Below are positions 18,999 to 49,652 of a stretch of DNA of 50,040 nt, piece by piece. Location of the stretch: assembly GCA_017449025.1 (NCBI GenBank), contig JAFSKJ010000044.1:1-50040 (forward strand), read 5' to 3'. The notes under the pieces were generated by a model that was given only the letters and a program-made list of their open reading frames with translations, made no database searches and had not been told where the DNA came from. Numbering within the stretch: position 1 is the stretch's first letter; each line of letters opens with the position of its first letter. Source of the DNA: Prevotella sp. (GTDB taxonomy: Bacteria > Bacteroidota > Bacteroidia > Bacteroidales > Bacteroidaceae). The position numbers and the translations under genes were made by a program.

Positions 18999-19196
18999 GA
19001 AAGGCCGAAGGCTTGATGAGACCACAGGCAGGGGTGCAACCCCTGTAAAAGATGACGGCACACACAAGCCCTGAAAGGGCGACAGAGCGCTCTGCCACCC
19101 CTTTGGGGTTTGTGTTACTTCCTGCATTGTATCAGGGGTTTCGCTTCGCTTCACCCCTACCTGTATTCTTGACGCCCTTTCAGGGCTAAGTTTGAC
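18972..19196. repeat. Repeat family B with a 27-bp tandem duplication, at the 5' end of the C13 gene
   Basis: 18972-18998 and 18999-19025 are imperfect tandem 27-mers (GAAAGRCCGAA...GAGACCAC). They are followed by ACCACAGGCAGGGGTG-C-AACCCCTG, AAGCCCTGAAAGGGC and further short palindromes up to CCCTTTCAGGGC. The same series (CAGGCAGGGGTG-AAACCCCTG, AAGCCCTGAAAGGGC) occurs at 49891-49950. It abuts and partly overlaps the lipoprotein signal sequence of the C13 gene. Confidence 0.7.
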
Positions 19197-19222
19197 GCAT
19201 CTCATAGAACAGTGAAAGTTGA

Positions 19223-34372: not shown

Positions 34373-37168
34373 CTATGCTGTTTTCTTGCGTTTGATGACT
34401 GAAGCATGGCAGGGAATCATGATGTAGACGGTTGTGCCCGAACCAACTTCAGAGATAATCTCGACGGTGCCGCCCATCTGGCTGACAAGTTCCTTGGTGA
34501 TGGCCAGTCCCAGTCCCTTGGTGGTGTGGACTCCGCCCAGCTCCTCCTCCCTTATGCGTATGAGTTCGGCCTCGGGAATGCCTTCACCCGTATCGTCTAC
34601 CGAGATGACCAGTCGGCGGCCTATGTAGTCGTAGCGTGCCCTGACGGTTCCCTTGCTGGTATGCTGTGCTGCGTTGGCTGTAATATGTCCGATGACGCGC
34701 CCCAGGTTCTCGGCATCAATGTCTACCGTCAGCTGCTCGTACGGGTTCTCTACTATATATCGGGTATTGTCGTTCTTGAACTTCATCCACCCGTCGATGC
34801 ACAGCGACTCGAACAGCTCGGCGAAGTTCAGGGGCTGCTTGTTTATTTCCACCATCCGCGCCTCTAAGCGCGACAGGTAGAGGATGTTGTCTATCAGGTG
34901 CAGCAGAGAGTCGGCATTCTGCTGGATGCCAGTGCATAGTTCCGCCTCGTTGTCGGTAGGCTCGTTCTCGTTGATCTGCGACACGTAGTCCACCACATTC
35001 CCCATGGGGGTTCGGATTTCCTGCACCATGTTCTTGATGAAGTTGTTCTTGGTGCTCTCCACCTCCTGCACCTTGGCGTTCTGCTCGTCCATCTGGTTCT
35101 CTATCGACTTCATGGTGCTGATGTCGCGCAGCAGTCCGCGGTATTCCGTCACCCGCAGTCTTTCCTTGTCGTAGACGGGTATGAGGCGGAAGTGAAGAAT
35201 CAGCGGCACGCCACCGGCAGAGCGCAGTGTGGTCCTGACATCGCAGTCTACCACCTTGTCGGCACAATCGTCCATATCGCTAATCAGGCGCAACACCTGA
35301 CGCTGCGAGTGCTCGCTGACCAGCGTCATGCAACGGGTCTGCGTCAGTGCATGCTGCACATTGTCCATTCTGTTGTAGATGGTCAGCGTGTGCGAGCCAG
35401 GCGTGTAGGCCACCAATCGGATGTCGGTACCGTCTATGGCCGAGTTGATCAGTGCCCTATAGTGGTTCAGCTCGCCGCGCACCTCGTTTATCCTCTTCTG
35501 CCCGTCCAGCTCCTGGCCTTTGCTGTTGACGGCCATGGTGATGTCGCGGCAGAAGGCAAAGACCCCCAACAGGCTGCCGCCATCGTCGTGGATGGTCATC
35601 AGGCGGAACTCCGCAATGCGGTCGCCGGCCACAGTCTGCGTGGCCTGCAGTCCGTCCAAGTCCTCCAATTGCCGGTCGCCAATGTTCAGCAGCTCACCAA
35701 TGGCAATGCCTTCCTCCACCGCCTCGTCGGCATTGCACCCGAACATGTCGCAGGCCTTGGGGTTGATATTGGCAAGGCGCCCCTCGTTATTGAAGAGCAT
35801 GATGCCAAGTATGGGCGTATAGAAGATGGACCAGTAGCGCAGGGCGCGCTCCTCGTCGAGCCGTTTCTGCCGCTGCTCTTCCGTTACATCTTTCTTAGTG
35901 CCTATAATCACCGTGGGATTGCCCTTCTTGTCACGGCTCAGCACCGACAGCACAATGTGGTAGTCGCGGTCCTTGGTGTCGCCGCCCTCCACATCCTTGG
36001 CACGCAGCGTCAAGTCGATCTCCTTTTCCTCGGAAATCTGTCCACTTGATTCCTGCGACAGTCTGTCCAATGCCGACTTCAGACGCACGAAATCCTCGTG
36101 GCTATAGCGCTGCGAGAACTCGTCCATGGAGTATGTATATGCCACCTGGCCGTTGTCGTTGTGCCATGCAAACTGGTTCTTCAGTATGTCGTAGGTCCAC
36201 ATGTGTACCTGACTGGTCTGCATGATCAGCGCCAGCCGGTTGTTGCGCTTAGTGTTCTCACGGCTCAGCTTGCGACTCTGCGTGTTGTAGGTGACAGCAT
36301 AGGCTCCCATCAGAATCAGCAGTGCCACCGCACCACCTACGACATACCACATCCACTCAGGCATTCCGGGATCTTGCCGCTCCGGATAGAACCACTTGTC
36401 CTGCAACGGCTGTATCTTGTCGTTGGTGTACAGCTTGGAGTAAGCATCGTCCAATCGGTCCAGCAACTGCTGATTGTGCGACATGAACTTATACTGGCCG
36501 TGCTGCATATTGACAGGTGTCAACTCCAGATTGTCAATATGATAGCGGTTCATCAGCCATTTCAGCGACAGCGTGTTCCATACAATCAGCCCATCCTCCT
36601 TGGCACTGACCTCCTGGATGGCCTCGCGCATATCCTCAACGGGCAGGGCATTCTCACCCCAGCCGTATTCCAGCATCAAGTGATGGACAAGTGAACTATC
36701 GTTGACAATAACGTGGTGGTTGCTCAAGTCGCGGAACCGTTTAATCTCCACAGTCTTGCTCTTAGGTGTCACCACGCTCTGCGTAAACAGCGTCACGGCA
36801 TTCTTGCTGTACAGTCCGAACTCATCGTGGAATCCTACAGCCAGTCCCAGCATCAGGTCCGACCGCCCGTCCTTAAGGTCGCGGAAGGCCTCTTGCGACG
36901 GTTTCAGCTTGATGACGTAGGGAATCTCCAGCTCCTTCATCAGCAGCCGTATCAGGTCTACGTTGAAACCGTCGGGTTCGCCATCATCGTTCAGAAACGA
37001 ATAAGGCCACAAGTCCCACACGTCTTCATAAACAAGGGGGTGAGCCTCGGAAAACACCTGTGTGCTGTCAGTCTGGGCCTGTGTTGCAGCCAACGAGAAT
37101 GGCATGCAAAGCAGCATCGTCAGCCATCTCCTGCACCATATCTTTTTATAGCATGAAGTCTTAAGCAT
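34373..37168 (-). CDS. SBP_bac_3-TM-PAS sensor with degenerate histidine kinase (phospho-acceptor His replaced by Gln)
   Basis: 931 aa, same architecture as the next gene. A signal peptide is followed by a solute-binding domain (about 48-268: DVWDLWPYSFLNDDGEPDGF, AFRDLKDGRSDLMLGLAVGF, PLQDKWFYPER), a membrane segment (about 275-292), PAS-like domains (VTEEQRQKRLDEERALRYWS, PILGIMLFNNEGRLANINPK), a HisKA-like helix and HATPase_c. The H-box reads NNFIKNMVQEIRTPMGNVVD, where the usual His is Gln716 (codon CAG). ATPase motifs look conserved (ITANAAQHTSKG, DDTGEGIPEAE, TKGLGLAITKEL). It could act as an ATP-binding, phosphotransfer-dead partner of the adjacent kinase (inference). It heads the three-gene sensory operon, with a promoter-like box at 37205-37212. 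Confidence 0.85.
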   Translation of the reverse strand: MLKTSCYKKIWCRRWLTMLLCMPFSLAATQAQTDSTQVFSEAHPLVYEDVWDLWPYSFLNDDGEPDGFNVDLIRLLMKELEIPYVIKLKPSQEAFRDLKDGRSDLMLGLAVGFHDEFGLYSKNAVTLFTQSVVTPKSKTVEIKRFRDLSNHHVIVNDSSLVHHLMLEYGWGENALPVEDMREAIQEVSAKEDGLIVWNTLSLKWLMNRYHIDNLELTPVNMQHGQYKFMSHNQQLLDRLDDAYSKLYTNDKIQPLQDKWFYPERQDPGMPEWMWYVVGGAVALLILMGAYAVTYNTQSRKLSRENTKRNNRLALIMQTSQVHMWTYDILKNQFAWHNDNGQVAYTYSMDEFSQRYSHEDFVRLKSALDRLSQESSGQISEEKEIDLTLRAKDVEGGDTKDRDYHIVLSVLSRDKKGNPTVIIGTKKDVTEEQRQKRLDEERALRYWSIFYTPILGIMLFNNEGRLANINPKACDMFGCNADEAVEEGIAIGELLNIGDRQLEDLDGLQATQTVAGDRIAEFRLMTIHDDGGSLLGVFAFCRDITMAVNSKGQELDGQKRINEVRGELNHYRALINSAIDGTDIRLVAYTPGSHTLTIYNRMDNVQHALTQTRCMTLVSEHSQRQVLRLISDMDDCADKVVDCDVRTTLRSAGGVPLILHFRLIPVYDKERLRVTEYRGLLRDISTMKSIENQMDEQNAKVQEVESTKNNFIKNMVQEIRTPMGNVVDYVSQINENEPTDNEAELCTGIQQNADSLLHLIDNILYLSRLEARMVEINKQPLNFAELFESLCIDGWMKFKNDNTRYIVENPYEQLTVDIDAENLGRVIGHITANAAQHTSKGTVRARYDYIGRRLVISVDDTGEGIPEAELIRIREEELGGVHTTKGLGLAITKELVSQMGGTVEIISEVGSGTTVYIMIPCHASVIKRKKTA

Positions 37169-37371: not shown

Positions 37372-37656
37372 CTATTTCCGCTTGGGGTTTTTAGGGAACC
37401 ATCCTCGGTCTACCCGCTTCTTCTGCTCGAAGAGTTCGCCTATGCCCCAGAGGGCGGATGCCCCGAAGACTCCGACGATGGCGGAGAGAATGGTGTTCTC
37501 AATGAACAAAGCCCAGACTATGCAGGCCACCCCAATGACAAGATAGGCCACCCAGGGTCGCGTACCCCAGTAATACTCTGTCTTGATGACAATGGGATGC
37601 CACAGCCCTATGGTAAGGAAGGTGGCAAGGGCAATGATAATTCCTGTAAAATACAT
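37372..37656 (-). CDS. DUF4491-like small membrane protein
   Basis: 94 aa with three hydrophobic segments (GIIIALATFLTIGLWHPIVI, WVAYLVIGVACIVWALFI, LSAIVGVFGASALWGIGELF) and a basic Arg/Lys/Pro-rich end. The pattern FxGIxxALxTFLxIGxxHPxVIKxEYxxGxxxW fits the Bacteroidales DUF4491 family, function unknown. It follows the TolC-type gene by 36 bases, across a TCCCCCC-A-GGGGGGA palindrome, so it may be the tail of the NRPS-export operon or an unrelated housekeeping gene; homologues occur widely without NRPS genes. Confidence 0.75.
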   Translation of the reverse strand: MYFTGIIIALATFLTIGLWHPIVIKTEYYWGTRPWVAYLVIGVACIVWALFIENTILSAIVGVFGASALWGIGELFEQKKRVDRGWFPKNPKRK

Positions 37657-37664
37657 TGAAAGTC

Positions 37665-37679
37665 TCCCCCCAGGGGGGA
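37665..37679 (-). terminator. GC palindrome between the TolC-type and DUF4491 genes
   Basis: TCCCCCC-A-GGGGGGA sits between the TolC stop (37693) and the next ATG (37656). It may attenuate transcription at the end of the export operon; no U run follows. Confidence 0.3.
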
Positions 37680-37692
37680 TGGCGTAGGATGG

Positions 37693-39063
37693 TTATTTAG
37701 CGTAGACAGCGAGTATTTTTTCGCGGATTATGAATTCATACTTAGCCTGTACGGCATTCTCGCGTGCCTGTCTGAGGCGCTGTGTGGCCTGTGTGAGGTC
37801 GTAGAGTGTGCTGCGGCCAGAGTCGTACTTGTCCTGCTCGAACGTGAACGAGAGCTGGCTGGCTTCCTGTGCCTTGAGTGCCGACTGGAACTTCTCTCGT
37901 GCATTGTAAGCATTGTGGTAGGCCTGCTCTATCTCCTTGTGCAGCTTCTGCCGCACATCGTCGAGGAGGAGCTGGTTGTCGGCGAGCGACATGCGTGCGC
38001 GGCGTATGTTGTTGCGGGTGGTGGAGTGGTCGAAGACGGGCACTGTGAGGTGAAGGCCGATAAGCTCGCTGCGGTTGTGCCACATCTGTCCGGGAAAATG
38101 CCGGTGGGTGGTCATGGCGCTCAGTGAACTCAGCTCGCTTGAGGTGTTGAAGAAGTTCTGGTAGTAGGTGTTGAGCGATGCGCGGAGTTTGAGCTGCGGA
38201 TAATATCCGGCGCGTGCCGTCTGAATGTCGTACTTGCTTTTCTCCACCTGTGCCTTCACCACCTCTATCGACGGGTATCTGTCGGCAATGTCGTTGAAGA
38301 GTGTCTGGGAGTCGATGATGTCGCCCTTTATTATCTCGTCGTCGGAGAAGTCAACTATTTGGAAGTCGGCAGCCGACTTGAGGTTGAGCAGCTGTGAGAG
38401 TGTGAGCAGGGCTATGCGTGCTCGTCCGCGACATTCGGTAAGGTCGTACTCGTCGGCAGCGAGCTGTGCCTCGGCGTCTGCCAGGTCGCTCTTGGGGTTC
38501 TTGCCGTCGTCTACGAGTGCCTTGGTGCGCTGATACAGCTGTCTGCTTGTCTCCACCTGTGTCTCTGCCACCTTGGCCATGCCTTCCTCATAGAGGGCTT
38601 GCAGGTAGTAGACAGCCACCTGTATGGAGAGGTCTTTGCGTGCATGGTCGAGCGAGGCCATGGTCTGCCTCACTTGCCAGCGTGCGGCCTTGACACGGTT
38701 CTGGGTGCGGAAGCCGTCGAAGAGTGTCATCTCGGCTGACACTCCGGCGCTGGTATACGACAGGTCGGAGTCAACCTGTCCCGACGAGGAGGGCATGGTT
38801 CCTGTGGATGCGAGGGCATTGCCGAAGCTGAACTGCTGTGCTATGCCGGCAGTGACGGTGGGCAGCCAGTCCTTGGTGGCGGTGTCCAAGTCGTTCTCGC
38901 TCATCTGCACGTCGAGCATTCTGCGCTGCACGTCGATGTTGTGCTCTATGGCATACTGTACGCAGTCTTCGTAGCTCCACTTGGGCTGTGCGTGGAGTTC
39001 CCCTCCAACTCCCCCGAGCGGGAGGGCTAAACATACTGCATATTTGATGATATTCTTTTTCAT
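37693..39063 (-). CDS. TolC-family outer-membrane efflux protein
   Basis: 456 aa with a signal peptide ending LHAQ. Two OEP repeats are visible: WSYEDCVQYAIEHNIDVQRR and LDTATKDWLPTVTAGIAQQF in the first half, then YPSIEVVKAQVEKSKYDIQT, ARAGYYPQLKLRASLN and YDSGRSTLYDLTQATQRLRQ in the second. The product would form the outer-membrane exit duct of the tripartite pump. It starts 8 bases after the adaptor gene. The signal-peptide h-region ends in LPLGGVGGE, encoded by a palindrome-type GC stretch (38998-39027) resembling repeat family A. Confidence 0.92.
   Translation of the reverse strand: MKKNIIKYAVCLALPLGGVGGELHAQPKWSYEDCVQYAIEHNIDVQRRMLDVQMSENDLDTATKDWLPTVTAGIAQQFSFGNALASTGTMPSSSGQVDSDLSYTSAGVSAEMTLFDGFRTQNRVKAARWQVRQTMASLDHARKDLSIQVAVYYLQALYEEGMAKVAETQVETSRQLYQRTKALVDDGKNPKSDLADAEAQLAADEYDLTECRGRARIALLTLSQLLNLKSAADFQIVDFSDDEIIKGDIIDSQTLFNDIADRYPSIEVVKAQVEKSKYDIQTARAGYYPQLKLRASLNTYYQNFFNTSSELSSLSAMTTHRHFPGQMWHNRSELIGLHLTVPVFDHSTTRNNIRRARMSLADNQLLLDDVRQKLHKEIEQAYHNAYNAREKFQSALKAQEASQLSFTFEQDKYDSGRSTLYDLTQATQRLRQARENAVQAKYEFIIREKILAVYAK
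38998..39027. repeat. GC-rich palindrome-type insertion in the TolC signal peptide
   Basis: The coding strand reads CCCTCCC-GCTC-GGGGGAG followed by TTGGAGGGG, the stem-plus-TTGG-GGGG layout of family A. It encodes LPLGGVGGE inside the signal sequence without breaking the frame. Confidence 0.5.
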
Positions 39064-39071
39064 AGTATGTT

Positions 39072-40181
39072 CTATAAATTCGTTTTCTCTATTCCCTTGA
39101 GCAGTTCTCCCTCCTTCACACCGTCCTTGAGCTGTATGTACAGTCCGTCGGAGAGTCCAACGGTGACGGGCCTGCGCTCAAACTGCTGATGCCTAAAGTC
39201 GGCAGAGTCGGTGGTGAGCACGTAGACGTATGGTTTGCCCTCTTCAAAGGAGACTGCGGTCTCGTCGCATGATAGTACGTCGTTGGCCGATGCCAGCACA
39301 ATGTTTGCATTGGCGCTGTAGCCGGAGCGTATGGTTACGCCGCGTGGTATGCGCGCCGTGGCCTTCAGCTCAAACATCTTTGCCCCGTTCTGCAGCTCGC
39401 TCTCCGGGGCAATATAGTCGAGGGTGGCCGGAATCATCACGTCTTGCATGGAGCCGAGCTTTAGTTCCATCTTCATGCCCACCTTGAGCTTGTCCACCTC
39501 GGTCTCGTCGATATATCCGCGGAAGATGATGTCGCCCATGTCGGCAATGTTGGCCACTGTGGTGCCCTCGGTGAAGGCGCTGGTGCCAGAGACCGATGCT
39601 CCCACCTCGACAGGCACGCTGAGCACGAGTCCGGAGATGGTTGAGCGCAAGTCGGTGATGTTGACGCCGCCCGAGCGTTCCGACTGTCCGCGGCTTATCA
39701 CCTGCACCTGTGTCTCTGCTGCGGTGACGCTCTCGCGTGCGGAGCGCAGCTTGTGGGCTTTCATCTCAAACTCCTCGCGGCTTACAACGCCTTTGTCGTA
39801 GAGTGACTTTATGCGGTCGTACTCCAAGCGCTCCTCGGCGAGCACTATGCGTGCCGACTCAACGCGGTTCTTGGCCTCGTTGAGCTGTGCCATGTCAGGT
39901 ATGATCTTGATGGTGGCTATCACGTCGCCAGCCCTGACATACTGTCCGGGCTTAACCAGCAGGCGGCTTATGACTCCGGTGGCCTGAGGCTTCACCGACA
40001 CCTGGTTGCGGGCCTCTACGCTGCCTGCGGCAGTAGTGGTCTTGACTATGGTGCGCCGCTGCGGTGCCACCAGCTCGTAGACAGTAGGCTTTGGCTGCGA
40101 CTGCTGGTAGAGGTAGTAGAACGTGTAGACAATAAACAGTGCCAGGAGGCACAAGCCTATAATTCTCAGTATCTTCTTCAT
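39072..40181 (-). CDS. Periplasmic adaptor (membrane-fusion) subunit, MacA/HlyD type
   Basis: 369 aa with an N-terminal membrane anchor (IIGLCLLALFIVYTFYYLY). Biotinyl-lipoyl halves (TTTAAGSVEARNQVSVKPQA, GVISRLLVKPGQYVRAGDVI and ISGLVLSVPVEVGASVSG) flank an alpha-hairpin (QLNEAKNRVESARIVLAEER, YDKGVVSREEFEMKAHKLRS). The beta-barrel region follows (GYIDETEVDKLKVGMKMELK, IPRGVTIRSGYSANANIVLA) with a membrane-proximal domain at the end. It would join the FtsX-type permeases to the TolC-type duct. It lies 28 bases after the second permease gene. Confidence 0.9.
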   Translation of the reverse strand: MKKILRIIGLCLLALFIVYTFYYLYQQSQPKPTVYELVAPQRRTIVKTTTAAGSVEARNQVSVKPQATGVISRLLVKPGQYVRAGDVIATIKIIPDMAQLNEAKNRVESARIVLAEERLEYDRIKSLYDKGVVSREEFEMKAHKLRSARESVTAAETQVQVISRGQSERSGGVNITDLRSTISGLVLSVPVEVGASVSGTSAFTEGTTVANIADMGDIIFRGYIDETEVDKLKVGMKMELKLGSMQDVMIPATLDYIAPESELQNGAKMFELKATARIPRGVTIRSGYSANANIVLASANDVLSCDETAVSFEEGKPYVYVLTTDSADFRHQQFERRPVTVGLSDGLYIQLKDGVKEGELLKGIEKTNL

Positions 40182-40209
40182 ATCTGTAATTATTGTTTTT
40201 ATTTGTTTC

Positions 40210-41478
40210 TTATTCTTCTCTTAGGGCGTCTATTGGCTTTATCTGCAGTGCGCGCTTGGTGGGCAGCCATCCGGCAAAGAGGCCGCCAGCCACGATAATG
40301 AGCAGCGAGGCCAAGGCTGTCCAGAACGGCATGTATGGGTTGGTGAAGGGCAGGCTTTCGCCTTCGGGCAGCATGCGCCCAGCAAAGCTCAGCAACCACA
40401 CTCCCATGCTCAGTCCGGCCAGTCCGGCGCCCATGGTGAGCACGAGGCTCTCCATCATTATCTGCGTGACTATGTTTGCCGGCTGTGCTCCGAGTGCTCG
40501 CCTGATGCCAATCTCCTGTGTGCGTTCCTTTACGGTTACGAGCATGATGTTTGATATGCCTATCAGTCCGGCCATGAGCGTGCCTAACCCTATGATCCAT
40601 ATCAGCAGGTTAATGCCTGTGAAGATGTTCTTGTACATGACAAGCATGTCGCCGAGCGTCACGCTTGTCAGCGCCAGCTGGTCGTCGGGGTGCACAGAGT
40701 TGTTCTCCTTAATGAGATTCTCTATCTGGCTACGGTAGTGAGCCACTGGCACAGAGTCCTTAAGTATCACAACAAAGGCATCTATCTCGTCGCCCCGCCC
40801 GTAGGCGGCCTGCTCTGTGGGCAATGGCATGAATACACTCTCCGATAGGTCTACGCCAATGTTTATCTGCTCGTTGGTGGTCTTGCTTACGCCCACCACC
40901 TTCAAGGGCATGCCATTGACCTCTACAATCCTGCCGGTGGCCTCGGCTATGTTGTCGAAGAGCACCTCGGCAATGTGCAGGCCGATGACGCATACCTTGC
41001 GGTGCTCCATTATGTCGATGTCGTCGATAAACCGCCCTTCAAGTACTCGCTGCGGCAGTGCACCGTAGAACTCCGGTGTGACGCCGAGCACCTGGTACTG
41101 GTATGTCTGCTCGCCACAGGACACGTTCTGGAAGTCGGCAAAGCAGATGGCGCTGACGTAGTCGACGCCGTTGCCCACTCGGCGTCGTATCTCCAGCTCG
41201 TCCTTGTGCCCCATTTTCCACTTCCTGTCGCGTCCGAAGCCCTTGTATGGCATGGTTGTCTCTTTCGGCACGAGCCACAGCAGGTTGGCGGGCATGCTCT
41301 TCACCCTTCCGGCCACGCCGTTGTCGAGTCCCATGCCTGCGCCAATGAGCAGTGTGAGCATGAAGATGCCCCAGAACACTCCAAAGGCTGTCATCAGGCT
41401 GCGCCCCTTCTGGCTCTTGATGGTCTGGAGGATTTCTCCCCAGAAGTCTGCGTCGAATATGTTTATGTTCCTGTTCAC
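40210..41478 (-). CDS. MacB/FtsX-type ABC transporter permease (no ATPase domain), second copy
   Basis: 422 aa. One N-terminal membrane helix (SLMTAFGVFWGIFMLTLLIG), a large periplasmic MacB_PCD domain (about 50-270) and three C-terminal helices forming the FtsX domain (INLLIWIIGLGTLMAGLIGI, then ISNIMLVTVKERTQEIGIRR ALG, and VWLLSFAGRML / ALASLLIIVAGGLFAGWLP). Unlike E. coli MacB there is no fused nucleotide-binding domain. It follows the first permease by 12 bases; the two are presumably a heterodimer for mechanotransmission-type export of the NRPS product. Confidence 0.9.
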   Translation of the reverse strand: MNRNINIFDADFWGEILQTIKSQKGRSLMTAFGVFWGIFMLTLLIGAGMGLDNGVAGRVKSMPANLLWLVPKETTMPYKGFGRDRKWKMGHKDELEIRRRVGNGVDYVSAICFADFQNVSCGEQTYQYQVLGVTPEFYGALPQRVLEGRFIDDIDIMEHRKVCVIGLHIAEVLFDNIAEATGRIVEVNGMPLKVVGVSKTTNEQINIGVDLSESVFMPLPTEQAAYGRGDEIDAFVVILKDSVPVAHYRSQIENLIKENNSVHPDDQLALTSVTLGDMLVMYKNIFTGINLLIWIIGLGTLMAGLIGISNIMLVTVKERTQEIGIRRALGAQPANIVTQIMMESLVLTMGAGLAGLSMGVWLLSFAGRMLPEGESLPFTNPYMPFWTALASLLIIVAGGLFAGWLPTKRALQIKPIDALREE

Positions 41479-41490
41479 TTCACTTGTTGT

Positions 41491-42732
41491 CTATGCTGCC
41501 GAGAGTGCATCCGTCAGCTTTATTCTTACTGCATGTTTGGCTGGCACGTATCCCGCTATCAATCCGGCTATCACCATGATGACGGTGATGGCCAGCGCAT
41601 ACGAGACGGCTATCGTTGGGTTGGCAAAGATGTTGCTGTTGCCCGACTGTTCTATTGCCCAAGCCACAAGCTCCATCAGCCCGATGCCTATGACCATGCC
41701 CACATAGCCGAAGATGAGCGATATTACCACGGCCTCGGCCAGCACCATGGCAATAATCTGCCAGGCCTTGGCACCCACGGCGCGGCGTATGCCTAACTCG
41801 CGCGTGCGTTCCTTAACTGATATGAGCATTATGTTGGATATTCCCACTATTCCTGAGAGCAGTGTTGCCAGTCCCACCACAATGACGAAGATGTAGAGCA
41901 CACTTATGATGCTGCTCACCAGCACTGGCAGCTCGTAGATGTTGTCGATCTTCACAGCCCGTTTGTCTGCTGGCGAGAACTCCTTGCGGGCTGCCAACTC
42001 GCTAAGCACACGTGCGTTGAACGCTTTGTTCTGCTCGGCAGTGGTCAGCAGGTTGGTCTGCAGGTATATTCTGCTAAGCATGCCTTCGGGACAGAAAATC
42101 ATCTTCGTTGTGGTGAGCGGCGCCACTATGTCACGCGTCTTATTCTCCTTGAGCAGAGGCTCGTAGACGCCGATAATCTCGAAGACTATGTTGTTGAGGT
42201 GCAGTTGACGGCCAATGATGCTGGCAGTGTCCTTTGGGAAGAACACCTCCTTGAGCCTTTCGGGTATTACGCACACCTTGCGCTGCTGCTCCATGTCAAG
42301 GTCGTTTATATCGCGCCCCTCCTTCAGCCGCACATTAGGCGCAACGGAATAGCCTGGTTCATAGCCATCGACAGTGGTGTTAGTGTAGTACTTGCCGTAG
42401 CGTGCCTGCACAGGATGGCTTATCACTGGTATCGCTTTCACCACGGTGTCGCCGAACACCTGCTTCAGGTGTCGGGCATCGTCCTCATAGAAGCGTATGG
42501 GACGTCCCTTCTCCCGTCCGTTGAACGACTGCGACGTCTCTCTCGGCGTCAGCGTCACCACTCCCACGTTGTAGGCCTGGAAGTTGTACTGCATGCCGTT
42601 GATGAGTCCCTTTCCTGAGCTGATAAGCACAATGAGAATGAAGATTCCCCATCCTATGGCGAATCCCGTGAGCGCTATGCGCATCTTGTTTCTCATTACG
42701 GAGGTCATCACCTCCCTCATCAGTTCTCCCAT
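41491..42732 (-). CDS. MacB/FtsX-type ABC transporter permease (no ATPase domain), first copy
   Basis: 413 aa. N-terminal helix (IALTGFAIGWGIFILIVLIS), MacB_PCD periplasmic region (about 45-260; LTPRETSQSFNGREKGRPIR, RQLHLNNIVFEIIGVYEPLL) and FtsX helices with the conserved GISNIMLISVKERTRELGIR motif. It shares layout but limited sequence with the next gene. It starts 16 bases after the NRPS stop codon, which ties the pump to the synthetase. No ATP-binding subunit is encoded anywhere in this operon or elsewhere in the window. Confidence 0.9.
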   Translation of the reverse strand: MGELMREVMTSVMRNKMRIALTGFAIGWGIFILIVLISSGKGLINGMQYNFQAYNVGVVTLTPRETSQSFNGREKGRPIRFYEDDARHLKQVFGDTVVKAIPVISHPVQARYGKYYTNTTVDGYEPGYSVAPNVRLKEGRDINDLDMEQQRKVCVIPERLKEVFFPKDTASIIGRQLHLNNIVFEIIGVYEPLLKENKTRDIVAPLTTTKMIFCPEGMLSRIYLQTNLLTTAEQNKAFNARVLSELAARKEFSPADKRAVKIDNIYELPVLVSSIISVLYIFVIVVGLATLLSGIVGISNIMLISVKERTRELGIRRAVGAKAWQIIAMVLAEAVVISLIFGYVGMVIGIGLMELVAWAIEQSGNSNIFANPTIAVSYALAITVIMVIAGLIAGYVPAKHAVRIKLTDALSAA

Positions 42733-42748
42733 GTCTGCCAGATTGTTG

Positions 42749-45700
42749 TTATTGTTGTTCCTTCAGGTCGCGCAGCATGCAGTCGGTCACTATGCCGTTA
42801 TGCTTGTTGGAATGCGCTATGTTCAGGTGATGGTCGTCGATGTCGGCTGTCTCAAGCCTCGGAGCCACTTCGCGCCAGCGAGCCATGTTGGCTTCAAGGT
42901 CGGTATTCTCACGCAAGGCGTTGAACAGCACCACGCGGCCGTCGTAATGCGGGAACGGCACGTCGCAGCTCAGGCGGTTGACTGTATCCAATTTCTTTAC
43001 GGCTATCTGCAGAACCGTCTCGGCATACTGTGCGTCAGTGACCTTGATGCCCATTGTCTCAATATCTTCGGGATGTTCCTTCGCGAAATCCATCATGTAC
43101 TTTGCAATCTCCTCCTCGCCTGCCATGCCGCTCTTGCTGCGTAGATGTGAGTCGCCCATGTAGACGTTGGCTGCATAGCCGCGCATCTGCTGCCAGCGCT
43201 GTGCCAGCCAGTAAGCCTGCTCGCCGCCGAACGAATAGCCGATGAAGGCGAAGACGCGGGCCGTGGCAGGGATGTCGCGGTCGAGCATCGCGGCGTAGTA
43301 GCTTATCGTGGCGGTGAAGTCAGCGTCGGCGAAGAGTCGGTCGGAGTGTTCGTCGATAGGCTCGATGGCATAGATGGAGAAGTGCTCCTGCCACAGGCGG
43401 AACTTCTCTAACATGCTGGCTGTGAAGACTATGCCATGCGCAACCACCAACACGGGTTTCGCAGCGTCGTAGCCGTTGACCCAGTAGCCGGGCTCGCTGT
43501 TGGCCATGAAGGCCGACTCGATGGTGTGCCTGCGCATCATGTCGTTGACGCTTATCTTTATGCCCTTGGCAGCTGCCATGGCGGCCATGCGTATGGCACC
43601 GATGCTGGTAAGCCCTAAGGCGGCAAGGTCGTCGGTCACTCCGAAGTCGTCGCGGCCAACCACCTCACGTGCAATGCTCAGCAGCTCGCTCTCCTTCTCC
43701 GTCCGCGGTGCCACGTTCTCCAAGCTAAGAGTCAGCTCCGGCTTGGACAGGCGGCGACGGTCTATCTTGCCGTTGGCGTTCAGCGGCATGGCATCGAGCT
43801 GCATGAACACGGCGGGAACCATATAGTTGGCAAGCCTCTCGGCCATGAATGCCTTAAGGCCCTCGGTGTCCACCTTTCCGTTGTCGGCTGTGAAGTAGAG
43901 GCAGAGTATGTCAAGGTCGCCTACTTTACTGACCATGGCCACTACCTGACGCATGCCGGAATACTTGGCGGCGCAACTCTCTATCTCGCCAAGCTCAATG
44001 CGGAAGCCGCGAAGCTTCACCTGGTTGTCCATGCGCCCGATGTATTCAATGTCGCCCTGAGCATTCCAGCGGCAGAGGTCGCCAGAATGATACATGTCTA
44101 CCTTACGGCCCCATCTGTCCACGCTGACAAACGGGCAGTCGGCAAACGCCTGCGACGTACGCTCGGGCAGTCGCCAATAGCCGCGACCCACCTGGATGCC
44201 GGCAATGCACAGCTCACCCACCATTCCCCTCGGAACCATATTCCCGTAGCCATCGACAATGAAGTTCCATGTATTTGCAACGGGCTTGCCGATAGGAATA
44301 TTCTCCACGTGCTTGCCGGGAGGGATGCTGTAGTAGGATGTATCGCAGGTACACTCTGTGGGGCCATATACATTGATGATCTCGACATTGTCGCTGTAGA
44401 CTCCGCTGAGCTTCTCTCCGCCAGCAGTCATGAACCGCATTGGCAGGTCGTCGTAGGAACTGAGCAACAGGGAGGCTATGGACGTGGTAAAGCCGCCACC
44501 CGTAATCTGATGGCTAAGGAGGAATTCGCGTATGGCTGCGAGGTCCTTCCTAATCTCTGTCGGCATGACATGGAACGAGCCGCCAAGGGTCAGGATAGGA
44601 AACATATCCTCAATATGTGCGTCGAAGGAGAACGAGCGGTGACCCTCTATCCGGTCGGCTGCCGTCAGCCTCTCCGCGCCGATAATAACGTTGATGAAGT
44701 TCCACAGGCCGGCATGGTGCAGCACGGCTCCCTTGGGCTTGCCTGTCGAGCCAGAGGTGTAAATCATGTAGGCCAGATTGTCGGGCGTTGCCAGATTGAC
44801 TGGTGCTGCCTCGACACAGAAGTCCATGTCATCGATAAACAATGTCTGCACGTTGCCTGACTCAAATTCGCCCTCAGCCCTTTTGCTCTCCAATACGGAA
44901 TGACTGGTGATGAGGACTTTCGACTCGGAATTCTCCAACATATACTGCAGCCTGTCATTGGGATATTCAAGGTCCATTGGGGTGTAGGCTGCGCCAGCCT
45001 TGTGAATGGCAAGCACAGAGAGGGGGAACTCCTTGAAGCGGTCAAGCATCACGCAGACGAAATCATTGGGCTGTACTCCTGCATCTATAAGCTGACGTGC
45101 CATAACGTTCGAACGGTGCGACATCTCCCGGTATGTCAGTTGGCCGTCCCTGTCGACGACAGCCACGTTGTCGGGCATCTTGGCGGCACACTCCTCAAAG
45201 GCGTCGACAAAGGTCTTCGTTATGTCAATGTCCATCTGTATGCCTGTGCCAAGCTCAACGAGAGCCTTCCGCTCCTCGGCGGTGGTCATCTCTATGTCGG
45301 CAAGGGTGACGCCGGCCTTGGTGGCGTTCTGCGCGTAGGTTACTATGGCGTCGGCCAGGGCCTGCATGTCTGGCTGGCTGTATAGGGCGGTGTCGTACGA
45401 CACGTGCAGGTGATAGGCTCCCTTCCTGTCGTTGTAGGCCATCATCTCTATGGGCAGCTTCTGGGTGTCGAGTTCCAGCGTGATTAACTCTACGTCGGTG
45501 CCGAAGGGTATGTCCACGCTGTCGTAGATGCCGCTGTTGAAGGCGAAAAGTATCTCGGGCCGGAAGCCGCTCTGCTCTACCATCGCCGTCAGCGGATAGA
45601 AATCGCGCGCCACGGTCTCTATGCTCTGGCGGTGCATCCTGGCGGCTGCCTCGGCGAAGGTTTCGCCTGACGTGCCTGACGTGGAGGTCATGGGGATGGT

Positions 45701-48700
45701 CTTGACAAACATTCCCGTCATGTTCTCCATCTGGCTCAGGGAGCGCCCGCCGGACACGGTGGCCAGAGCTATTGACTCCTGGCGCGTCAGGCGGTGGAGC
45801 ACCTGTGCCAGCACTGTCTGGAAGTAGGAGCTGGCGGTGATGCCCATGCGGCGGCAGGCCTCGTCGATGGTGCTGCCGCTGCTTATCGATGCCGTCACAG
45901 TGGCTGCCTTCCTGTCCGTGGAGTCCGTATGGGAGGAGTGCGGGAAGCTGGCGGATTCCATGCCGTCGAGAAGGCGCGAGAAGTACTCGCCGGCCTCGGC
46001 ATAGCGGCTCTCGTTGCGAAGCTCCTGCTCGTAGATGGCGAAGTCGAAGGCCGTGACCGCCTCCGGCTGCACCTCGCCGCCGGAGTAGGCGGTGAGCACG
46101 TCGCGGTAGAACGCGGCATCGGAGAGGCCGTCGTTGATTATGTGGTGGAAGTCGCGGAACAGGTAGACGGAGTCCTGCCAGCGGTAGACCTCTATGCGGT
46201 AGAGGTTGTCGTCGAAGAGGTTGAAGGGCCGCACGCGCTGCTGGAAGAACGCGCGGTCGGGCTCGTTGTCGAGGTCGCGCAGCAGCACCTCGGCCTCGGC
46301 ATCGTAGCGACGCTGCTGCACTATGTCGCCGTCGTGGTATGCCAGCCGCGTCTTCAGGTAGCCGTGGGCGTCTACCACCTTCCTCAGGGCATCGGCCATG
46401 CGCTCGGCGTCGAGGTGACCGAGGCGGATGGCGGTGGGCAGGTTGTACTGCGTGGTGTTGCGGTTCATTTCCCAGTCGATGTATATGCCGCGCTGGTTCT
46501 CCGTAAGCGGGTAGTAGTCCTGGTCGCGGTAGTATGTCAGCAGGTCCACGATGTCTGCCTGCGCATTCTTCTCAGCTATGGTGGCCAACTGGCGCACGGT
46601 GGGAGTGGTCAGTATGTCGTTCACCGTGAGCGCCACGCTGTAGCGCTGCGTGGCGAGCATGCTCAGGCGCATGGCGGTGAGCGACGTCAAGCCGATGGAC
46701 ACCAGGTCGGTGGTCACACCGAATTGCGTGGTTTGCAGCTGCTCGGCAACAAGGTCGAACAGCCTCTGCTCCATCTCGGTCTCGGGGGCAACTATTTCCT
46801 CTATGCTTACCTCCGGCTTGGGCAGGCGGCGACGGTCTATCTTGCCGTTGGCGTTCAGCGGCATGGTGGGCAGTTTCACGTATGCCGTGGGCACCATGTA
46901 ACCTGCCAGATGGCTGGCAAGGTACTGCCTCAGCGCGTCTTCATCTATGGCTCCGTCGGAGGTGTAGTACAGGCAGATGGTCTGGCCGTCGTGAACCACT
47001 ACGGCGGCAAGGGCTATGCCCTCGTATTTGGCCGCGCAGGCCTCTATCTCGCCAAGCTCAATGCGGTAGCCGCGAATCTTCACCTGGTTGTCAATGCGCC
47101 CGAGGAACTCAAGGTTGCCGTCGTCGGCCCAGCGCACCAGGTCGCCAGTGCGGTAGCAGTGCCCGCCCATGAACTCTGTAAACTTGTGGGCATCCTTCTC
47201 GGCGGGGTGCAGGTAGCCGCGGGCAACGCCCACGCCGCCCACCACAAGCTCGCCGGCGGCCCCGCGGGGCAGGAGCTGCATGTTGCGGTCGACAATGTAC
47301 AGTTGGTAGTTGGCCAAGGGGCGTCCTATGAGCGACGAGTCGTAGTCGTGCTCTATATTATAAAAGGTGGTGACGAAGCTCTCCGTGGGGCCGTAGGCGT
47401 TCTGCACAAGGAAGGCGGGTTTCTTCATGGGGTTCAGCTTCTCGCCGGCCACCACCAAGAGCCGCAGCGAGCGGTTGCTAAGCGAGGTGGCGAAGAGATA
47501 GCCTATCTGCGTGGTCATGAAGGCAATGGTGATGTTGTTGGCCTCCATGTAGCTGTTCATGGCAATGACGTCCATCCTCATCTCCGACGACACGATATAG
47601 GTGCTGGCACCGGAGAAGATGGCCGGGTAGAGGTCCATCATGTGGGTGTCGAAACCATAGTTGGAGAAGGCCAGCAGACGGTCGGAGGGGGTGATCCCGG
47701 CCTCCTTTATGTACCAGTGGCAGAAGTTCACTATGTTGCGGTGCTCCAAGGCAACGCCCTTGGGCTGGCCGGTGGAGCCTGAGGTGTAGAGAATAACGAA
47801 GCGGCCTGCGGACTGCGGCTGCGGCAGGGAGACTGCCGACGGCTGCACCTCAGGGAGTGTCTCGGCAAGGAACACCTGACCCTGGAACGTGGGCAGCGAC
47901 TGGCTGACACGGTTGCCCTCGCTGAGGATGAGTCGCACGGATGCATCGTCGCACATGTATTGCAGGCGGTCGGCAGGAAACTTGAAGTCGAGCGGCATGT
48001 ATGCAGCGCCGGCCTTCATCACGGCCATGGAGTAGATGGGCATCAGCTCGGAGCGGTCTACCATCACGCCCACGGCCTCCTCCTGTTGCACTCCGTAGTG
48101 CTCCACGAGGTGGGAGGCGAGGCGGTCGGTAATCTCGTCGAGCTGGCGGTAGGTGAGCATGCGCTCCTCGAACACCACGGCAATGGCATCGGGAGTCTTC
48201 GCCGCCTGCTTGCGGAAGAGGCTCACCATGGTGTCGGCGGTGTCGTAGTCAAGATGCTCCCCGGCACCAAGCGCCAAGAGCGGCTCGCGCTCCTCGCGGC
48301 TGGTTATGGCAATGTCGCGAAGACAAGCGTCGGGGGCAGCCATCATGTTCAAGACAGTAGCTCTGATGGCGTCGGCCACCATCTGCATGGTGGCCTCATC
48401 GTTCATGGCAAGGCTCGACTCCACACGTATCTCATAGTCGCTGCCCTTGAAAAATATCAGGACTCCGATGTCGGTGTCCATATCGCCGCGGACGGGCTGC
48501 ACTGCGCTGATGTCACCCTCGCTAAGGTGCAGCATTTCCTCCATCTCGGGAAGGGCCTGGAAATTGAACATAATGCCGGGAGTCATGCCGAGGTCAAGGC
48601 AGAAGTGACTGAACGGATAGGTGCCGTATCGGATAGTGCTCATCAGCTCTGTGCGCTGGCTCTTTATGAACTCAGTCACTGTCATGTCGGGGCGGGCGTC

Positions 48701-49546
48701 GGCTATCACGGGCACTGACTTGACGAACATGCCCACACAACCGCGCAGGCGCTTGTCAATGCGGCCATGGTTCACAGTGAAATATGCAACCTTCTCCTTC
48801 CGGGTGAGAACGGACATCACATGACCGAAGGCCGCCATGAAGAGCAGGTTGGGCTGAGTGCCGTGGGCATGGCACCAATCGTCGCATTCCTTACGGTCCA
48901 CGTATGCGGAGCGGCGCCCCATCTTGCCCATGGAGCCGGGAGTGCTACGGCTAAGGGTAGCCATCTCAAGGCCACCGAACTTCTTGGCATAGTACTCCTT
49001 GGCACGCTGGTAAGCCTCGGTGCCAAACGATGCCACCTCGTCCTCAGCCGCCTCGTACATGCCGTAGCCCGACGGCTCATAGCGCCCTCCGTCGAATGCC
49101 TTGGCAAACAGATTCAAGAGAATGGGCGAGAAAGACATGCCGTCGCAGATGGTATGGCTCGCGTCGGTGAGCAAGCAATAGCCTTTCTCTGTTTTCACCA
49201 CCTCAAGGCGAAACAGCGGCTCGCCGCTGAAAAGATTGAAGGGACGCACGAAACCGTTGCGCACGTATTCCTGCAGCTCGGCCTCTGTGCTCTCACGCCA
49301 TATCACGGGAATAGTCATCGACGGGTCGCTCCACTGCCGCACATTACCCAAGGCATCAACCATGAAGCGGGTATGCAATTCGGGAACATCGTTGACAATC
49401 GTGTTATAGGTCCTAAGCAAACGCTGGCTGTCAACGGTGGCAGGAATATATATGGTGCTGGGCAGGTTGTATTGTGTAGAATTGGTATGCCGCATGCAGT
49501 GGAGTATCACTCCCAACTGCGACTGCAAAACTGGATAAGTCTTCAT
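42749..49546 (-). CDS. Two-module non-ribosomal peptide synthetase (C-A-T-C-A-T-TE)
   Basis: 2,265 aa from the ATG at 49546, the first in-frame ATG downstream of the promoter; the frame is open to 49624. Domains in order: C1 (about 1-400, SHTICDG with active-site His131); A1 (about 430-900, YTSGSTGQPKG, NAYGPTE, YRTGDLVRW, DNQVKIRGYRIELGEIE, NGKIDRRRL); T1 (Ser955 in SIGLTSLTAM); C2 (about 1010-1400, HHIINDG with His1135); A2 (about 1440-1910, YTSGSTGKPKG, NVYGPTE, YHSGDLCRW, DNQVKLRGFRIELGEIE); T2 (Ser1981 in LGLTSIGAI); thioesterase (about 2020-2265, GYSFGG with Ser2105, and a late DDHHLN that can supply the His). All core motifs look intact, with no epimerase, methylase or reductase. The product should be a dipeptide, perhaps N-acylated because module 1 begins with a C domain, or a cyclised dipeptide, released by the TE. 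Exporter genes follow 16 bases downstream. No MbtH-like gene or phosphopantetheinyl transferase is in the window. Confidence 0.93.
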   Translation of the reverse strand: MKTYPVLQSQLGVILHCMRHTNSTQYNLPSTIYIPATVDSQRLLRTYNTIVNDVPELHTRFMVDALGNVRQWSDPSMTIPVIWRESTEAELQEYVRNGFVRPFNLFSGEPLFRLEVVKTEKGYCLLTDASHTICDGMSFSPILLNLFAKAFDGGRYEPSGYGMYEAAEDEVASFGTEAYQRAKEYYAKKFGGLEMATLSRSTPGSMGKMGRRSAYVDRKECDDWCHAHGTQPNLLFMAAFGHVMSVLTRKEKVAYFTVNHGRIDKRLRGCVGMFVKSVPVIADARPDMTVTEFIKSQRTELMSTIRYGTYPFSHFCLDLGMTPGIMFNFQALPEMEEMLHLSEGDISAVQPVRGDMDTDIGVLIFFKGSDYEIRVESSLAMNDEATMQMVADAIRATVLNMMAAPDACLRDIAITSREEREPLLALGAGEHLDYDTADTMVSLFRKQAAKTPDAIAVVFEERMLTYRQLDEITDRLASHLVEHYGVQQEEAVGVMVDRSELMPIYSMAVMKAGAAYMPLDFKFPADRLQYMCDDASVRLILSEGNRVSQSLPTFQGQVFLAETLPEVQPSAVSLPQPQSAGRFVILYTSGSTGQPKGVALEHRNIVNFCHWYIKEAGITPSDRLLAFSNYGFDTHMMDLYPAIFSGASTYIVSSEMRMDVIAMNSYMEANNITIAFMTTQIGYLFATSLSNRSLRLLVVAGEKLNPMKKPAFLVQNAYGPTESFVTTFYNIEHDYDSSLIGRPLANYQLYIVDRNMQLLPRGAAGELVVGGVGVARGYLHPAEKDAHKFTEFMGGHCYRTGDLVRWADDGNLEFLGRIDNQVKIRGYRIELGEIEACAAKYEGIALAAVVVHDGQTICLYYTSDGAIDEDALRQYLASHLAGYMVPTAYVKLPTMPLNANGKIDRRRLPKPEVSIEEIVAPETEMEQRLFDLVAEQLQTTQFGVTTDLVSIGLTSLTAMRLSMLATQRYSVALTVNDILTTPTVRQLATIAEKNAQADIVDLLTYYRDQDYYPLTENQRGIYIDWEMNRNTTQYNLPTAIRLGHLDAERMADALRKVVDAHGYLKTRLAYHDGDIVQQRRYDAEAEVLLRDLDNEPDRAFFQQRVRPFNLFDDNLYRIEVYRWQDSVYLFRDFHHIINDGLSDAAFYRDVLTAYSGGEVQPEAVTAFDFAIYEQELRNESRYAEAGEYFSRLLDGMESASFPHSSHTDSTDRKAATVTASISSGSTIDEACRRMGITASSYFQTVLAQVLHRLTRQESIALATVSGGRSLSQMENMTGMFVKTIPMTSTSGTSGETFAEAAARMHRQSIETVARDFYPLTAMVEQSGFRPEILFAFNSGIYDSVDIPFGTDVELITLELDTQKLPIEMMAYNDRKGAYHLHVSYDTALYSQPDMQALADAIVTYAQNATKAGVTLADIEMTTAEERKALVELGTGIQMDIDITKTFVDAFEECAAKMPDNVAVVDRDGQLTYREMSHRSNVMARQLIDAGVQPNDFVCVMLDRFKEFPLSVLAIHKAGAAYTPMDLEYPNDRLQYMLENSESKVLITSHSVLESKRAEGEFESGNVQTLFIDDMDFCVEAAPVNLATPDNLAYMIYTSGSTGKPKGAVLHHAGLWNFINVIIGAERLTAADRIEGHRSFSFDAHIEDMFPILTLGGSFHVMPTEIRKDLAAIREFLLSHQITGGGFTTSIASLLLSSYDDLPMRFMTAGGEKLSGVYSDNVEIINVYGPTECTCDTSYYSIPPGKHVENIPIGKPVANTWNFIVDGYGNMVPRGMVGELCIAGIQVGRGYWRLPERTSQAFADCPFVSVDRWGRKVDMYHSGDLCRWNAQGDIEYIGRMDNQVKLRGFRIELGEIESCAAKYSGMRQVVAMVSKVGDLDILCLYFTADNGKVDTEGLKAFMAERLANYMVPAVFMQLDAMPLNANGKIDRRRLSKPELTLSLENVAPRTEKESELLSIAREVVGRDDFGVTDDLAALGLTSIGAIRMAAMAAAKGIKISVNDMMRRHTIESAFMANSEPGYWVNGYDAAKPVLVVAHGIVFTASMLEKFRLWQEHFSIYAIEPIDEHSDRLFADADFTATISYYAAMLDRDIPATARVFAFIGYSFGGEQAYWLAQRWQQMRGYAANVYMGDSHLRSKSGMAGEEEIAKYMMDFAKEHPEDIETMGIKVTDAQYAETVLQIAVKKLDTVNRLSCDVPFPHYDGRVVLFNALRENTDLEANMARWREVAPRLETADIDDHHLNIAHSNKHNGIVTDCMLRDLKEQQ

Positions 49547-49581
49547 CGTCTCAATTGCTTCCTCATAATTGTTTTCGCCTG

Positions 49582-49613
49582 CAAAATTACTCATTTTCCG
49601 CGAAACAAGCAAA
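49582..49613 (-). promoter_or_regulatory. Promoter of the NRPS-export operon
   Basis: On the minus strand a -33 TTTG (49610-49613) is followed after 20 bases by a -7 TAATTTTG (49582-49589). Transcription would begin near 49575, which excludes the in-frame ATGs at 49624 and 49594 and supports translation from 49546. Confidence 0.75.
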
Positions 49614-49652
49614 GAAAATATCATTTTTATGGAAGCAACAAATAAAAACTAC

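Follow-up and report, generated by a model that had tools for sequence, protein, structure and literature searches.

How can a tripartite pump be energised when the operon that encodes it contains no ATPase gene? This question is raised by a nonribosomal peptide synthetase (NRPS) operon of Prevotella sp. on contig C85, which in its entirety forms the stretch analysed here (the window, 50,040 bases; draft genome G000 of 3.50 Mb in 134 contigs, 80.65% complete). The predicted operon lies on the minus strand and reads NRPS, FtsX1, FtsX2, HlyD, and TolC, with gaps of 16, 12, 28, and 8 bases. The explanation that we favour, with a probability of about 0.5, is that this is an acylated-dipeptide operon whose pump has lost its ATPase and is powered in trans by a shared one. 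The operon features on which the argument rests are as follows (G, C, and L numbers are our handles for genomes, contigs, and loci).

42749..49546, minus strand: NRPS, probable gene extent, 2265 amino acids (aa) from Met27; condensation (C), adenylation (A), carrier (T), and thioesterase (TE) domains in the order C-A-T-C-A-T-TE
42749-49624, minus strand: longest open reading frame (ORF) of the NRPS, 2291 aa
42733..42748, minus strand: NRPS-FtsX1 junction, 16 bases; site of the ABC (ATP-binding cassette) ATPase gene in sister cluster G032
41491..42732, minus strand: FtsX1, MacB-type permease, 413 aa, MacB_PCD and FtsX domains; major coupling helix VKERTRELGIRRAVGAK
40210..41478, minus strand: FtsX2, MacB-type permease, 422 aa, MacB_PCD and FtsX domains; major coupling helix VKERTQEIGIRRALGAQ
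39072..40181, minus strand: HlyD/MacA-type periplasmic adaptor, 369 aa, Pfam HlyD
37693..39063, minus strand: TolC-type outer membrane duct, 456 aa, Pfam OEP

The missing ATPase gene and its probable single loss

In the MacB family the ATPase is either fused to the permease or a separate subunit (PMC5985334). Both permeases of the window have the domains and the coupling helix of a MacB-type (type VII) exporter, and the adaptor and the TolC-type duct are present; a fused or co-encoded ABC ATPase is not found in the operon. Pfam detected no ABC ATPase domain in the operon proteins, the two permeases matching MacB_PCD and FtsX only, and tblastn with the ATPase of G032 returned nothing at E<=1 across the whole window. 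In G032 the order is NRPS-ATPase-FtsX1-FtsX2-HlyD-TolC, and its FtsX1, FtsX2, HlyD, and TolC proteins are 60, 61, 72, and 60% identical to those of the window. The ATPase gene of the related pump operons has about 225 codons. The original prediction had described a dedicated tripartite exporter, but the pump is without the ATPase that is present in its sister clusters, and on this comparison the reading as a complete dedicated pump was rejected.

When 398 genomes of the genus were probed with the adaptor, 18 of them (host included) proved to have orthologues at 53-100% identity, the next matches reaching at most 47%; adaptor matches at E <= 1e-70 occurred in 274 genomes. The neighbourhoods of all 18 orthologue genomes and of G076, G174, and G344 were read. 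Two 47% adaptor copies, both in G076, join the NRPS-linked clade by their ATPase and their position in the tree. The ATPase gene lies within the pump operon in nine genomes (G032, G362, G318, G061, G237, G273, G293, G095, G076) and is absent from it in seven (the window, G286, G331, G090, G420, G175, G121), cut contigs making three others undecidable (G197, G145:C25, G160). In the seven ATPase-less clusters the NRPS-FtsX1 gap measures only -4 to 70 bases. With the G032 ATPase as query, tblastn gave no match at E <= 1 in these seven regions or the three cut ones, and 11 regions matched at 86-100%, including L061 (uncultured Bacteroidia bacterium RUG13016). Searches of 19 whole genomes recovered ATPases 86-100% identical to that of G032 in 10 genomes and none of this family in the other nine, namely the seven ATPase-less genomes, G197, and G160. 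In G145 the copy belongs to a second NRPS pump cluster, on contig C49.

In the adaptor tree, the seven ATPase-less rows and G197 form one clade (support 100/99) nested inside ATPase-bearing rows, the next outside being G145 (86/83) and G032. A single loss would suffice for all seven, because they form one clade nested among ATPase-bearing relatives, and the gene would have been deleted in the ancestor of the window cluster and at least six related clusters. The permeases remain under purifying selection, with a ratio of nonsynonymous to synonymous substitution (dN/dS) of 0.083-0.165 over five genome pairs; dS was 0.43-0.53 in four pairs and 2.2-2.8, near saturation, in the window-G090 pair. 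Between TM2 and TM3 lies the major coupling helix, the link of the ATPase to the membrane part (PMC5985334); both permeases retain it in the ATPase-less rows, save that one Arg of FtsX2 is Leu in G175 and G121. In five of these seven clusters (G286, G331, G420, G175, G121) the permeases are fused into a single ORF of 815-824 aa. ADOP proteins (TIGR03434) likewise hold two FtsX-type permeases in a polypeptide of about 800 aa; the fused permeases differ in scoring far below the family cut-off (197-212 bits against 622 for the three of five tested) and in sitting in NRPS-HlyD-TolC operons, and their identification as ADOP was rejected. The separate permeases of the window scored 107 and 124 bits.

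A candidate lender of the ATPase

We infer that another ATPase of the MacB/LolD type energises the permeases in trans, the likeliest lender being a complete ATPase-FtsX-FtsX-HlyD-TolC pump that is widespread in the genus and lies on contig C118 of the host. The C118 ATPase, encoded with FtsX, FtsX, HlyD, and TolC genes, is the closest in the host genome (64%; all others <=50%). C118-type ATPases (59-65%) occur in seven of the eight ATPase-less genomes when G197 is counted, G286 being the exception. Among 19 weaker paralogous pumps that were read, 14 are complete ATPase-FtsX-FtsX-HlyD-TolC sets, and in those of G090, G197, G160, G069, and G024 at least one gene was left uncalled by simple ORF calling. 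The coupling helix of the C118-type permeases is of the same kind as that of the ATPase-less ones, and the helix motif was not found around six other ATPases (C128, C102, C53, C134, C25, C27), save for two spurious matches at C25. A similar arrangement to the one proposed here is that of MceG in Mycobacterium, where permeases in separate operons share one ATPase encoded elsewhere (PMC9947336). The Mce systems differ in being lipid importers of another family, and borrowing is experimentally supported there and inferred here.

We compared 57 columns that separate the ATPase-bearing clusters from the paralogous pump and in which G032 shares the state of the former. In eight of the 57, half or more of the ATPase-less rows have switched to the paralogue state. 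The commonest state of the C118-type pump has been reached by V315I and S322K of FtsX1 in 7/7 rows, and by V325I (7/8), L329I (7/8), and A415P (8/8) of FtsX2. The exceptions to this pattern are given below, where the explanation is weighed.

The predicted peptide product, its proposed route, and related systems

The NRPS has Pfam matches to two AMP-binding, two Condensation, and two PP-binding domains; the Thioesterase match is weak (21 bits, under the 26.4 cut-off). Home-made domain models gave the order C-A-T-C-A-T-TE, and a modular NRPS with a release domain is further indicated by HxxxDG, LTS, and GYSFG motifs. The domains, with approximate borders, and the promoter are listed below.

48260..49537, minus strand: C1, N-terminal condensation domain; SHTICDG motif, with the second His of HHxxxDG retained
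46820..48223, minus strand: A1, adenylation domain
46577..46777, minus strand: T1, carrier domain, IGLTS
45257..46528, minus strand: C2, condensation domain, HHIINDG
43739..45211, minus strand: A2, adenylation domain, aligned with LgrA of known structure
43511..43711, minus strand: T2, carrier domain, LGLTS
42752..43471, minus strand: TE, thioesterase domain, GYSFG and DHH motifs, weak Pfam match
49582..49613, minus strand: Bacteroidota-type promoter, TTTG-N20-TAnnTTTG, the sole match within the operon region

The promoter pattern (spacers 17-23) occurs four times in the window, whereas shuffling predicts 0.31 occurrences and gave fewer than four in each of 100 shuffles. The match at 49582-49613 falls within the longest NRPS ORF. 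The real start of the NRPS is most likely Met27 (49546), because six of nine aligned related ORFs begin exactly there and eight have Met in this column. ORFs, domain matches, and the pattern count thus agree with the original prediction as to the C-A-T-C-A-T-TE synthetase, the two FtsX permeases, the adaptor, the TolC duct, the gaps of 8-28 bases, and the promoter. Its interval, 37372..49613, holds the operon genes and also takes in, unnamed, a DUF4491 gene (37372-37656, 94 aa). Directly downstream of the operon lie two adjacent sensor kinases (31814-34366 and 34373-37168, minus strand), both with SBP_bac_3, PAS, HisKA, and HATPase domains. By blastp, neither the DUF4491 gene nor the two kinases have a counterpart beside the pump in the neighbourhoods of the relatives, and they were excluded from the system. 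Genes upstream of the NRPS are not visible, because the contig ends 416 bases upstream of its ORF.

In the proposed pathway, the NRPS would join two amino acids, the N-terminal condensation domain most likely adding an acyl group first, and the thioesterase would release the product. The specificity codes, from an automated alignment with GrsA-numbered positions, are D-T-M-Q-L-V-A-V-gap-K for A1 and D-A-E-S-M-A-V-C-D-K for A2. They give no confident call of the amino acids; the acidic third residue of the A2 code is reminiscent of basic amino acids. The best NCBIfam match of the NRPS is the aureusimine synthetase AusA, at 895 bits, far under the cut-off of 2500. The product is probably an acylated dipeptide, as is suggested by the N-terminal condensation domain, which PMC2812497 ties to N-acylated peptides for an identical C-A-T-C-A-T-TE layout in a rumen methanogen. 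This domain stands at the same place in all ten NRPS ORFs aligned at the N-terminus (window included). With this domain and without a confident amino-acid call, the simple and predictable dipeptide of the original prediction is not supported. In the five clusters with fused permeases (L099, L100, L102, L104, L105), a condensation-type domain replaces the thioesterase at the NRPS C-terminus. Lipoinitiation by an AMP-ligase flanking some sister pumps was considered and rejected, the ligase not being specific: relatives of it occur in 13 of 14 genomes searched, with at least two copies in 12, one in G197, and none in G286. On contig C75 of the host (L011:5002-7266), a further bimodular NRPS stands beside a SpoIIE-HATPase_c_2-Cache protein that recalls regulators described beside methanogen NRPSs.

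As to export, the original prediction had the peptide secreted by the MacB-like pump. Pumps of the MacB type are argued to take their substrates from the periplasm (PMC5985334), and a further inner-membrane transporter is expected for that reason. Such a transporter would move the product into the periplasm, from where FtsX1-FtsX2-HlyD-TolC would expel it across the outer membrane, using MacB-type mechanotransmission. In several ATPase-bearing clusters, a MATE transporter with a C-terminal HATPase_c_2 domain adjoins the NRPS or the pump, and three of these were confirmed by Pfam (L047:9750-11504, L123:4799-6616, L111:15331-17091). Of the 10 ATPase-bearing genomes, with G145 included, all but G237 have a full-length relative (E <= 1e-80). 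Weaker matches were found in G286 (26%, on the contig of the cluster) and, shorter and weak, in G420, G197, and G175. Upstream of the NRPS, four ATPase-less clusters carry a lipoprotein-like gene (401-411 aa), without a Pfam match in the three scanned (L100, L117, L102).

L100:1917-3128: lipoprotein-like gene
L117:9946-11160, L118:16412-17617, and L102:9688-10917: lipoprotein-like genes, 32-34% identical to the first

Linkage of an NRPS with a MacB-family tripartite pump, the central point of the original prediction, holds among the relatives: an NRPS lies near the orthologous pump in 15 of the 18 genomes, and contigs are cut in the other three (G197, G145 contig C25, G160). The NRPS ORFs concerned range from 1390 aa (G420) to 7262 aa (G061); therefore the pump accompanies different products. 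In an order-wide sample of 393 genomes, the adaptor was matched at E <= 1e-104 in four besides the host, all of one other genus. Their pumps comprise ATPase, both permeases, and adaptor, with the duct seen in two of the four, and no NRPS match lies within the fetched stretches; the pump may thus be older than its NRPS link. Contrary to the original prediction, NRPS genes are not uncommon in this group. Condensation domains (E<=1e-15, all above the Pfam cut-off) occur in 160 of the 398 congeneric genomes, the host has two further NRPSs, and 934 NRPS clusters were reported from rumen Bacteroidaceae (PMC8241843). The class Bacteroidia is treated as cluster-poor overall in PMC9248904.

NRPS operons with MacB-type pumps are of a kind already known. 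In Pseudomonas, NRPS products are exported by MacB-type pumps: PvdRT-OpmQ (pyoverdine) and the MacAB-homologue operons for phytotoxins likewise combine a nonribosomal peptide with a MacB-type tripartite pump, the phytotoxin pump genes lying inside the biosynthetic operon, as here, and action from the periplasm being argued (PMC5985334). MacB itself carries the ATPase domain (PMC5985334), in contrast to the permease pair of the window (a fusion in five relatives), whose ATPase was not found in operon or genome. Similarly, mru0068 of Methanobrevibacter ruminantium is a bimodular C-A-T-C-A-T-TE NRPS beside a MatE transporter (PMC2812497), and MatE also occurs in several ATPase-bearing sister clusters; the mru0068 cluster differs in being archaeal, and the excerpt does not mention a MacB/HlyD/TolC pump. 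Sister clusters also resemble the darobactin exporter DarBCD (NF038007, NF038010): DarD is the best NCBIfam match of the sister cluster's ATPase (246 bits, cut-off 375), and DarC matches the window adaptor weakly (37 bits, cut-off 450). DarBCD differs in that the window cluster is without an ATPase, and all these scores are under the cut-offs. Elsewhere in the window, an 820-aa protein (16743-19205, minus strand) joins an ANF_receptor receptor-type ligand-binding domain to a C13 peptidase, a 780-aa protein (23205-25547, minus strand) has a MACPF domain and a Fib_succ_major match slightly under cut-off, and a 3372-aa ORF (2306-12424, minus strand) has a Laminin_G_3 domain and little else recognised. 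Darobactin is a ribosomally synthesised and post-translationally modified peptide (RiPP), and its cluster is a natural-product cluster with its own MacB-type exporter.

Weighing of the explanations and significance

Several observations weigh against a borrowed ATPase. The genomes are mostly draft metagenome-assembled genomes (MAGs), and G160 nests with ATPase-bearing rows and yet has no ATPase, its contig being cut; absence from a draft genome alone proves little for this reason, and more weight belongs to the seven tight junctions. Neither a G032-family nor a C118-type ATPase is seen in G286 (61% complete). No match to a phosphopantetheinyl transferase was found in G000, G286, or G145. In G175 and G121, Leu replaces Arg after GI in the FtsX2 helix. 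The switched columns make up 5/20 in the cytosolic ATPase-facing segments and 3/37 elsewhere, an enrichment that is not significant (p = 0.09), with segments that were delimited when some of the data were already known. In FtsX2, L is retained at 329 by the window and V at 325 by G090, and the host's own C118 permease has Arg, against the Lys of most paralogues, at the place of FtsX1 322. The switched states also occur in ordinary pumps of another family, and thus suggest an ATPase of generic kind, not a particular one. With this p value and these exceptions, the helix residues were rejected as proof of re-targeting to C118 and are a hint only. Finally, a full-length MATE-HATPase relative was found in only one of eight ATPase-less genomes (G090) and not in G000, a point that the proposed pathway does not explain; in this clade, the inner-membrane step may have changed along with the energising one.

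The pump might instead be ordinary and complete, its own ATPase gene lying at another genomic site, beyond the contig end upstream of the NRPS, or in sequence that the MAG lacks. The nearby contig end, the incompleteness of G000 with its unmatched phosphopantetheinyl transferase, and the genes hidden by cut contigs in G160, G197, and G145:C25 would fit this. However, seven clusters have no ATPase gene between NRPS and permease, and the ATPase is nowhere in eight genomes (the seven and G197) that are 61-94% complete, the product of the eight incompleteness values being about 1e-7 if carriage is independent. Nor was there an ATPase match among the fetched ORFs upstream of the NRPS in G286, G331, G420, G175, and G090, and we consider this explanation unlikely. 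An exporter that is decaying, the permeases being lost and the peptide leaving otherwise, seems very improbable: loss of the energy-coupling subunit would normally kill a pump, but the permease frames are open in 7/7 clusters, the dN/dS values given above are low, and the coupling helices are mostly invariant in the five fused permeases.

Rather improbable, too, is a permease pair that, together with adaptor and duct, forms a conduit, gate, or sensor for the peptide and works independently of ATP. We know of no ATP-independent MacB-type pump. Clade-wide absence of the ATPase, the scarcity of the MATE-HATPase partner (1/8 against 9/10 genomes), the fusion of the permeases in 5/7, and the Arg-to-Leu change that two genomes show in the FtsX2 helix are all compatible with it, but both permeases are under purifying selection and keep the major coupling helix, which transmits ATPase movements (PMC5985334). 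As for the product, a free dipeptide or diketopiperazine, with C1 inactive or recruiting an outside amino acid, is possible, though doubtful. C1 reads SHTICDG instead of HHxxxDG, and the operon has no acyl-ligase gene, as opposed to the AMP-ligase beside the pump in G032, G145, and G076; on the other hand, C1 retains the second His and DG, an initial C domain occupies the same position in all ten aligned NRPS ORFs, and the host genome encodes two related AMP-ligases elsewhere. Taken together, there is about an even chance that the clade dropped its own ATPase once and has since relied on a borrowed one (or none), with docking surfaces re-tuned and permeases mostly fused.

The new element is the loss of the ATPase, and the rest of the system is ordinary. 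The literature yielded no MacB pump that is linked to an NRPS and lacks its ATPase, with the limit that only open-licence PMC papers were covered, which is weak evidence of absence. If borrowing is true, it would represent evolved ATPase sharing in tripartite export, visible stepwise in living relatives. The loss of an ATPase while both permeases stay under selection would be a natural test of ATPase interchangeability and coupling-helix recognition. In addition, the set of pump genes beside an NRPS may not be self-sufficient, and transfer of such a cluster to a new host could fail without the borrowed ATPase. These findings may bear on peptide secretion by gut and rumen Bacteroidales, where NRPSs are common.

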